A stretch of DNA of 36,509 nucleotides, taken from the NCBI GenBank assembly GCA_013298595.1, contig JAAFIG010000043.1:1-36509 (forward strand), given 5' to 3'. A program made the translations under genes and the position numbers. Positions 19,768-22,693 of the stretch are shown piece after piece (the first letter of the stretch is position 1; each line of letters opens with the position of its first letter). The notes beneath the pieces were generated by a model. That model did no database searches. It was not told where the DNA came from and was given only the letters and a program-made list of their open reading frames with translations. Source of the DNA: Deinococcales bacterium (GTDB taxonomy: Bacteria; Deinococcota; Deinococci; Deinococcales; JAAFIG01).

Positions 19768-21183
19768 ATGAAGCCATATAACCCAAAAGAGTACACGTTT
19801 GAAGATGCTTCACACTTGTTGCGCCGCGCTGGTTTTGGAGGCACGCTCGAAGAAATCGAAGCGCTGCGCCGCTTAGGTCCGCAATTGGCTGTGGAGAAGT
19901 TATTATCGTTTAGTTCCTTTGATGGTTCAGAACCCAACCCACACGATTTAGACGCTCAAGCTAAAGCAGCCGAAGAAGCAGGACGACCACTGAATCAAGT
20001 TGTTGCCAGCACAGTGCAAGTAACACAAGCTTGGTGGCTGCACAAAATGCGAACTACTCGAGAACCGCTGAAAGAGAAAATGACTTTGTTCTGGCATGGG
20101 CATTTTGTCAGTGGTTTAGATAAAGTGCGAAGCGGTTACTTACTGAGAAACCAAAATGAATTGTTTCGCCGTATGGCACTGAGTAACTTTGAAGCGATTA
20201 CCTTAGCTGTTGCTAAAGACCCAGCCATGCTTAGGTACTTAGATAACGATTCCAATACCAAAAAACACCCAAACGAAAACTTTGCTCGAGAAATCATGGA
20301 GCTCTTCACTATGGGTGTGAACAGTGGTTACACCGAAAAAGATATTCAAGAAGCAGCTCGAGCTTTTACAGGTTGGACATTTGTTTACGCACAAAAACAA
20401 GGTCTCGAAGGCTTAAAAAATCCGCCTTTTGTTTTTAACCAAAAAAACCATGATACGGGTGTTAAAACAGTCCTTGGACAAACTGGTAATTTGAAAGGCG
20501 AAGATATTGTTCGTATTGTTTGTACGCAGCCCAGCACAGCTAAGTATATGGTGACAAAGCTCTGGAAGTTCTTTGTGGCCCCAAATATTCCAGCGGCAAC
20601 ACTAGACGAATTAGTGCAACTCTGGACAAAAAGTAAAGGCAATATCCGTGATGTATTACGTGAAATTTTTGCTTCTGCCGAATTTTACGCAGCAGAAAAC
20701 CGTTTTGCACTGATTAAAACCCCAATTGAATTTGTGATTGGTTCAATACGAGCCACAAACGCCCAACTCGAGCCAGCTCATGAAATGGCATTGTCTAATA
20801 TTTTATCACGTATGGCACAAATTCCATTATACCCACCAGATGTTTCGGGTTGGGATGGCGACATAGACTGGATTGCTGATACCACCATGCTAAACCGGTT
20901 GCAGCACATGGCAACATTCTCCAGTGGTGCTTTACCAACAGTGGTTGAAAAACGTAAAAGTGTTTATGGTGCTGGTGGCTTAAAGAAATTCAGTGTGCAA
21001 TGGGTCATGGGTAAAGACCTATCCGAGACCATAGATTTAATTGGTAAAACCCATTATGGCGAGAAACCAATAGGGGTTTTACGTAAAGCCCTCGAAGTGT
21101 ATGCCAAAGGGCGTAACACCCCAGAGATTGCTCGAGGTTTAGCGTACTTAGCCATGATTTCACCGCAGTACCACTTAAATTAA
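19768..21183 (+). CDS. DUF1800 protein, copy A
   Basis: 471 residues. DUF1800 hallmarks are LLRRAGFGG at the start, KEKMTLFWHGHFVSG (near residue 100), NENFAREIMELFTMG (residues about 170-185), YTEKDIQEAARAFTGWTF, GEDIVRIV, and the C-terminal ISPQYHLN. No signal peptide is visible; partner DUF1501 proteins carry the export signal. DUF1800/DUF1501 gene pairs are widespread, envelope-associated and without assigned biochemistry. GGAGG lies before the ATG. The gene is the first of a two-pair array with the DUF1501 genes at 21524 and 24187 and the DUF1800 gene at 22748. Copies A and B share long conserved blocks and one 26-base exact block around ATGACTTTGTTCTGGCATGG. Confidence 0.87.
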   Translation: MKPYNPKEYTFEDASHLLRRAGFGGTLEEIEALRRLGPQLAVEKLLSFSSFDGSEPNPHDLDAQAKAAEEAGRPLNQVVASTVQVTQAWWLHKMRTTREPLKEKMTLFWHGHFVSGLDKVRSGYLLRNQNELFRRMALSNFEAITLAVAKDPAMLRYLDNDSNTKKHPNENFAREIMELFTMGVNSGYTEKDIQEAARAFTGWTFVYAQKQGLEGLKNPPFVFNQKNHDTGVKTVLGQTGNLKGEDIVRIVCTQPSTAKYMVTKLWKFFVAPNIPAATLDELVQLWTKSKGNIRDVLREIFASAEFYAAENRFALIKTPIEFVIGSIRATNAQLEPAHEMALSNILSRMAQIPLYPPDVSGWDGDIDWIADTTMLNRLQHMATFSSGALPTVVEKRKSVYGAGGLKKFSVQWVMGKDLSETIDLIGKTHYGEKPIGVLRKALEVYAKGRNTPEIARGLAYLAMISPQYHLN

Positions 21184-21191
21184 GGGATGCC

Positions 21192-21338
21192 ATGAAACAT
21201 CAATGCACTGGTTGCCAAAAGTTGCTTTGTCCGTTTAAGAAAATTCGTTTACAACTCGAGTTCCCTCGTTGTCACCAATGCAGTCTCGAGTTTCGCTTGC
21301 AACCCATCACTTTTTCTTTTGCTTTTACTAGAAGCTAA
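21192..21338 (+). CDS. 48-residue zinc-ribbon mini-protein
   Basis: A short ORF, too small for a 60-residue cutoff, between DUF1800-A and DUF1501-A. It reads MKHQCTGCQKLLCPFKKIRL then a second half with RCHQCSLEFRL. Two CxxC knuckles (C5-C8 and C27-C30) plus C13 make a classic four-ligand zinc ribbon. AAGGGA four bases before the ATG could serve as a ribosome site; the gene starts eight bases after the DUF1800-A stop, so it reads as an operon member. Two CTCGAG sites encode the Leu-Glu pairs. The last codons overlap the left arm of the structured element at 21327. Function is unknown. It may be a pseudo-fragment, but the clean CxxC pattern favours a real gene. Confidence 0.5.
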   Translation: MKHQCTGCQKLLCPFKKIRLQLEFPRCHQCSLEFRLQPITFSFAFTRS

Positions 21339-21494
21339 TTACTAAGTATCTCACGCTTTTCTTAACCCTAAGACGCACCTCGCGGGCAGGTTTAGAATTT
21401 TCAAAAAACGGCAATTCTGCCAGTACAGCGTGAGATACATCGCCCTTACTCCTTCTAGTCGGAAATGTTTTAGTAAGAAACGCTAAAACATTTC
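21327..21494 (+). repeat. Structured intergenic element with nested inverted repeats
   Basis: The outer arms ACTAGAAG (21327-21334) and CTTCTAGT (21452-21459) enclose perfect 12-bp arms GTATCTCACGCT (21346-21357) and AGCGTGAGATAC (21427-21438), with inner pairing AGAATT (21394-21399) and AATTCT (21413-21418). A separate perfect 12-bp hairpin, GAAATGTTTTAG (21462-21473) to CTAAAACATTTC (21483-21494), follows before the Shine-Dalgarno of DUF1501-A. It matches no riboswitch I know. It may be a cis-regulatory RNA or a MITE. Confidence 0.6.
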
Positions 21495-21523
21495 AGGGAT
21501 CTACTTAGTACAAGGAGCTATTT

Positions 21524-22693
21524 ATGAAAAGACGTGATTTCCTCAAATCTTCAATGCTGACAGTGGCTGGTCTGACCGGACCTGGTTTTCTGGCACGCAG
21601 TGCTGAAGCTGCCATTGGCAAAGGTAAGATTCTTGTTGTCATTCAATTATCGGGCGGTAATGATGGTTTGAATACCTTAATTCCGTACAGCAATGGTGCG
21701 TATTATGCTGCTCGTCCAACGATTGCCATTGAGAAGAAAAATGTTTTAACCCTCTCGAGTGATGTTGGTTTACATCCAAGCTTAAAACCGCTGATGAAAT
21801 TCTGGGATGACGGCAAACTTGGTTTGATCCAAGGTGTAGGTTATCCAAACCCGAACCGTAGCCACTTTGAAAGCATGGCAATTTGGCACACAGCCGACCC
21901 AAGTGCTCGAGAACATGATGGTTGGATTGGTCGTATTGCCGAAAAGTATGGCGACCCTTTCTGCGCGACAAATTTTGGTGGTACCACACCACTGGCTTTA
22001 CGCGGCGCAGATATGATTTTACCAAGTATTTCGAGTATTGATAGTTTTCAATTAAAAATTGCCCCTGAAGCCAAAGGTGCTTTGGATGTGATGCTTGGTT
22101 CTAATTTGTCAGGACGAGCTGAAACCATTCGCAATGCCACTAAGCAAATGTTTAGTAATATTGACAGTGTGCAAAAAGGGGTGAGTAAATATAAACCAGG
22201 GGCTGCTTACCCAGATGAAAACCTGGCAGAAAGTTTACGCGACATTGCTCGGTTAATAGCAGCCGATGTTGGACCACGGGTTTTTTATACATCCCAAGGT
22301 GGTTACGATACCCACGCTGGACAACCCGAAGACCAAGCAGCCTTACTCGAGACACTCAGCGCTTCGATCACAGCTTTTATGGCTGATCTCGAGAAACAAG
22401 GTCGGGCGGATGATGTGATGATTGTTGGTTTCTCAGAGTTTGGACGCAGACTTGCCGAGAATGCCAGTGCAGGCACAGATCATGGTAAAGCCAGTATGAT
22501 GTTCACCATTGGTAACAGTGTTAAGGGTGGTTTATATGGTGCCCAACCAGACCTCGAGAAACTCAATGATGGCGACCCCGTTATGACCACTGATTTTAGG
22601 CAAGTCTATGCCACAGCGCTGGATGGTTGGTTGAACGTTTCAAGCCGCGATATCCTTGGAGCAGCTTTTAAGAATATTCCATTTATTCGCTAA
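21524..22693 (+). CDS. DUF1501 protein, copy A, Tat-exported
   Basis: 389 residues. The N-terminus [10 protein letters not shown] followed by a hydrophobic stretch and ARSAEAA is a twin-arginine signal. DUF1501 motifs are [50 protein letters not shown] and [21 protein letters not shown]. The family belongs to the alkaline-phosphatase-like (sulfatase-type) metal-hydrolase superfamily; His and Asp ligands are visible in GTDHG. AAGGAG lies before the ATG and follows the 12-bp hairpin. It is a paralogue of copy B (24187), with a 62-base tract identical at the nucleotide level. Role unknown beyond the export and pairing with DUF1800. Confidence 0.88.

Follow-up and report, generated by a model that had tools for sequence, protein, structure and literature searches.

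A dispersed hairpin repeat between a small ORF and a DUF1501 gene in a Deinococcales bacterium is almost certainly an IS630-type MITE with a nested hairpin module

The RUP element of pneumococcus is 107 bp long and has been proposed to be moved by IS630-Spn1, and TA targets have been described for this IS630-related repeat (PMC2229807). Correia/NEMIS elements of Neisseria measure about 107 and 155 bp (PMC2229807). Deinococcus radiodurans carries 295 copies of small noncoding repeats (SNRs), which belong to at least 9 types and have been called 'mosaic' (PMC1978522). The SDR5 repeat of Nostoc (Elhai et al. 2008) is cited in PMC4390886.

We analysed a 36,509-nucleotide stretch of DNA from a Deinococcales bacterium (contig JAAFIG010000043.1; hereafter the window), in which a DUF1800 gene, a small ORF and a DUF1501 gene follow one another (Table 1). 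An initial annotation had described nested inverted repeats at 21327-21494 as filling the gap before DUF1501. The gap is exactly 185 bases, from the small-ORF stop (21336-21338) to the DUF1501 ATG at position 21524, as had been stated; the real unit, however, runs from 21345 to 21505 and is flanked by TAs. It was also correctly assigned to the first DUF1800-DUF1501 unit only, since the gap of the second unit measures just 47 bases and lacks the element. We conclude that 21345-21505 is almost certainly an IS630/Tc1-mariner-type MITE, a known kind of element of which it represents a new family. The preceding small ORF (MKHxCxxC....CPF) returned zero matches in Pfam and NCBIfam; it is also found, with 53-60% identity, in two relatives, G001 (a Deinococcales MAG of the same genus, JAAFJQ01) and G002 (another genus).

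Table 1. Positions of the features discussed. Coordinates are those of the window unless a locus or contig is named.
Feature	Position	Strand	Remarks
DUF1800 gene	19768..21183	+	context
Small ORF, 48 aa, conserved, CxxC...C	21192..21338	+	between DUF1800 and MITE
TA target-site duplication, left copy	21343..21344	.	target C^TA^G
Whole MITE, 161 bp	21345..21505	+	28-copy alignment, ends, empty orthologous site
Left terminal inverted repeat AGTATCTCAC	21345..21354	+	family consensus AGTATCTMCC
Left hairpin 5' arm GTATCTCACGCT	21346..21357	+	perfect 12 bp; overlaps left MITE end
Truncated 37-bp mobile hairpin repeat TCTTAACCCTAAGACGCACCTCGCGGGCAGG	21360..21390	+	nested in MITE
Left hairpin 3' arm AGCGTGAGATAC	21427..21438	+	
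Right hairpin 5' arm GAAATGTTTTAG	21462..21473	+	perfect 12 bp
Right hairpin 3' arm CTAAAACATTTC	21483..21494	+	loop inverted in L010, L013, L045
Right terminal inverted repeat AGTAGATCCCT	21495..21505	-	somewhat degenerate; family consensus AGTACCTCCCT
TA target-site duplication, right copy	21506..21507	.	
DUF1501 gene	21524..22693	+	AGGAG ribosome-binding site immediately outside MITE
Two interrupted tRNA genes	L204 1460-1570 and 505-613	-	Rfam tRNAs of 111 and 109 nt, contig C5 array
Third interrupted tRNA gene	C35:157295-157486 (L338 about 396-587)		read by eye

The boundaries of the element were drawn from aligned copies and their flanks, which gave the family consensus YTA, AGTATCTMCCG...AGGGAGGTACT, TAR, with AGTAYCTCCC as terminal inverted repeats on both consensus ends. 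Among 28 aligned copies, TA was present on the left in 27/28, on the right in 27/28 and on both sides in 26/28; the base preceding TA was C or T in 27/27 cases, and the base after it A or G in 24/27. Duplication of TA on insertion is the mode of the IS630/Tc1-mariner group. The orthologous locus of G001 (L169) proved to be empty, reading GCTAAAAACTAGCCGCTAGGAGCTATTTATG where the window reads GCTAATTACTA, the 161 bp and TAGTACAAGGAGCTATTTATG (i.e., ACTAG versus ACTA, AGTATCT...CTACT, TAG). Since the orthologous site is a plain CTAG, the MITE was inserted into C^TA^G, duplicating the TA. This is the one locus at which an empty site was established by orthology; the loci examined contained no second example, and one apparently old copy was shared (L024 with L093/L130). 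No ORF of at least 100 aa lies inside the 161 bp, and hence the MITE has no transposase gene of its own. The right end of the window copy is degenerate (AGTAGATCCC), so that this copy is possibly immobile now.

Dispersed copies with target-site duplications, which the initial annotation had named as the observation that would speak against a leader RNA, were readily found. Searching the genome of origin with 21311-21500 yielded 30 matching segments spread over nearly 20 sites; these copy numbers derive from sequence searches. Two of 60 sampled relatives carry the MITE, with at least 25 copies in G001 and two in G003 (another genus of the same family), and the remaining 58/60 sampled relatives of the order gave no match. 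Copies are 133-260 bp long and fall into classes of 133, about 170, about 210 and 247-260 bp. When 24 copies were placed relative to ORFs in a simple survey, nearly all proved to be intergenic. Searches of phages, plasmids and viral contigs gave no matches.

The two sets of perfect 12-bp arms seen initially are indeed present (Table 1), as are two smaller pairs that had been listed with them, although neither of these is a further hairpin of the element. One pair (TACTAAGTA, 21340-21348, and TACTTAGTA, 21502-21510) consists of the MITE ends and the duplicated TA. The other (ACTAGAAG, 21327-21334, and CTTCTAGT, 21452-21459) has its left arm within the small ORF, outside the MITE, and is most likely a chance match. 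The RNA folds at -54.3 kcal/mol, whereas shuffled sequences average -35.8 (z = -5.3) and 0/200 of them were equally stable; the pairing is therefore not due to chance. Across copies the hairpins are kept, with standard pairs in 96.1% of cells versus 92.7% in shuffles, and 23 cells show double changes versus 11.6 in shuffles. Since these double changes are confined to three pairs and separate a few subfamilies, the covariation reflects palindromes kept together and not a conserved leader. Selection on a DNA hairpin, or copying between arms, might have kept them. Three copies carry the right-hairpin loop in the opposite orientation (AGCAAAAAACGCT versus AGCGTTTTTTGCT; Table 1), which is a sign of recombination between arms.

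The initial annotation had left the choice between a structured leader RNA and a degenerate MITE, and the features that suggested the former are real: the fold is strong, and both helices hold 96% standard pairs with some covariation across the family, as could be expected of a riboswitch-like cis-regulatory leader of DUF1501. Nevertheless, the same sequence lies at about 20 unrelated places in the genome, and the covariation of the helices is that of a dispersed repeat family, contributed by a few of its subfamilies, and not that of a conserved locus. The element is missing from the orthologous DUF1800-small ORF-DUF1501 loci of both G001 and G002, and Rfam returned zero matches at E<=1, in agreement with the early remark that no known riboswitch fits. 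We regard a leader RNA as extremely improbable, and the empty orthologous site together with the absent Rfam match rules out a conserved leader or riboswitch. Co-option of the MITE at this one locus, with its hairpins now controlling DUF1501 expression, is less remote. The MITE lies in the transcription path, with a conserved small ORF before it and an intact AGGAG after it, and control of gene expression has been proposed for some Correia-type elements. However, a consensus-based scan of the MITE revealed neither a promoter-like site nor a forward terminator-like site, and the insertion is known from one species only; we consider co-option quite unlikely. As to the family of the MITE, a CTAG target and a TA duplication alone cannot separate IS5 from IS630, as some IS5-family groups likewise use YTAR targets. 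An IS5-type (IS427 group) origin is still very unlikely: the comparison of ends, which covered IS630-type elements, found its matches in elements that carry an IS630 DDE_3 transposase, and the genome of origin has no DDE_Tnp_1 gene.

Matching ends were seen in two relatives. In G012, which belongs to another family of the order, we identified a 1066-bp IS630 with DDE_3 and HTH ORFs (DDE_3, 4.8e-24; NCBIfam transpos_IS630, 1.1e-27), which ends in TAAGTACTTCCC and GGGAGGTACTTA and is flanked by TA on both sides. When its right end is set against the left ends of the MITE, 14/14 bases (G003) and 13/14 bases (G001 consensus) are the same. An IS630-like transposase homologous to that of G012 is represented in G001 by one and the same C-terminal piece at three contig ends. 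The right end of these fragments (TAAGTATCTCCACGAAATCATTTAGATTTT) aligns with the MITE ends, and each fragment ends in TTTCGTGGAGATACTTAG, followed by differing sequence; both ends of the full G001 IS630 should read TAAGTATCTCC. No full-length intact IS630 partner was found within the genus, for which draft assemblies, prone to losing multi-copy IS elements, were searched, and the flanks of the IS630 DDE_3 genes of G002 and G003 contained no ends matching the MITE. Since DDE_3 genes were not found in the genome of origin and G001 provides contig-end fragments only, the mobilising enzyme can only be inferred: judging from the end sequences, a transposase of the G012-type IS630 subgroup would have moved the MITE.

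Such an IS630-family transposase, acting in trans, would recognise MITE ends of the form AGTAYCTCCC..., excise a MITE elsewhere and join it into the CTAG site 3' of the small ORF, the joining step being expected to duplicate the central TA. The two hairpins are the MITE's own palindromes. Should transcription of the operon run through the MITE, they would form in the mRNA immediately before the intact AGGAG, and may affect the stability or translation of DUF1501.

Comparison of MITE copies uncovered a second repeat. At three exact positions, MITE copies either have or lack a segment of about 37-50 bp, which accounts for the size classes. The segments are copies of a module of 36-39 bp with the structure TCTTG-stem-...GCACCTNACGGGC-stem'-CGCT. 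Most full copies of the MITE in the genome of origin carry it at the same site; in the window it lacks 9 bases relative to sister copies, including the end of the 3' stem. The module, which is unrelated to the MITE, inserted into the MITE lineage, and the window copy holds it in truncated form. Comparing MITE copies that have the internal segments with copies that lack them locates module insertions exactly, and the MITE thereby records the movement of a very small mobile hairpin.

Exact matches to the module core pattern numbered 37 in G000, 106 in G001, 65 in G002, 79 in G003 and 23 in G012, with 1 in G008 and 0 in G047, counts in which some places are included twice owing to the variable gap length; a reversed control pattern gave 0 or 1. 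About 139 module units were examined in all. The inner stem covaries in a set of 45 distinct units, three positions pairing in 82-98% versus 51-64% in shuffles and a fourth in 78% versus 62%. The flanks of 64 units with independent flanks also pair with each other (-7.30 versus -6.11 kcal/mol when re-dealt; 0/5000 shuffles), and no such effect was detected 20-38 nt away from the module. Modules are nested in the loops of other modules (L112, L182, L199, L204 and L232), and they occur inside palindromic repeats of other kinds as well. The module is a repeat family of its own, whose members insert precisely, favour hairpin loops and nest within one another.

The module does not fit the REP/RAYT repeats. 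By definition these bear a GTAG or CGTC tag at an end, beyond the stem (PMC3733652), and such a tag is absent from the module ends. A RAYT was considered as the mobiliser and rejected: the Y1 genes resemble ordinary IS200/IS605 transposases, and no modules were found in the flanks (up to 1.5 kb) of Y1_Tnp genes in G000, G001, G002, G003 and G012. Rfam searches on intact modules gave no match except to surrounding tRNAs.

These tRNAs belong to G003, where three genes, Arg(tcg), Gln(ttg) and Arg(tct), carry a module at the same position of the anticodon loop (Table 1). Removal of the module in silico restored tRNA-Gln(ttg) and tRNA-Arg(tcg) as read by ARAGORN. The third gene contains several modules, one inside another, at CT^TCTAA. 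Elsewhere G003 has intact genes for Gln(ttg), Arg(tct) and further Arg tRNAs, so splicing of the interrupted tRNAs is not required, and a necessary splicing was dismissed on the same ground. The surroundings of the C5 genes (G003:C5:1-5700; L324) form an array in which about 20 tRNA genes are densely packed; a large share of them duplicate tRNAs found elsewhere in the genome. We put forward, as a speculative and rather unlikely reading, that the module is a distinct class of mobile repeat, inserted by an enzyme into hairpin loops of ssDNA or RNA, and perhaps acting in G003 as a tiny self-nesting intron removed from tRNA. If modules were indeed spliced from tRNA, they would constitute a new kind of bacterial intron.

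A further repeated motif was noted across the whole window (1-36509), the palindrome CTCGAG. It is present 231 times (6.3 per kb) versus about 4 expected from dinucleotides, and the second-ranking palindromic hexamer occurs 30 times. In this Deinococcales window CTCGAG looks like a highly iterated palindrome, comparable to cyanobacterial HIP1 (GCGATCGC).

Taken together, these results describe a MITE that is ordinary in kind, yet adds a new family of IS630 type, with a clean empty site, from a probably uncultured group of Deinococcales. Reading it as a MITE removes a false riboswitch candidate. The 37-bp module has its nearest likeness in Nostoc SDR5, a tiny repeat that is reported to insert precisely into other repeats. 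The two differ in sequence, length and host phylum, and loop preference and self-nesting have been measured for the module only. The SNRs of D. radiodurans, from the same order, resemble our elements by description, as mosaic small repeats. The MITE has no match in 58/60 sampled relatives of that order. Like RUP, the MITE is a short non-coding intergenic repeat with IS630-like terminal repeats and TA targets; unlike RUP, it resides in another host phylum, carries two adjacent hairpins and has size classes that stem from nested insertions of a second repeat. Correia/NEMIS elements share the TA termini and likewise have two main sizes, owing to an internal segment of about 50 bp. Their terminal repeat is 24 bp versus about 10 bp in the MITE described here, and each extra internal segment of our MITE belongs to a dispersed hairpin family that is independent of it.
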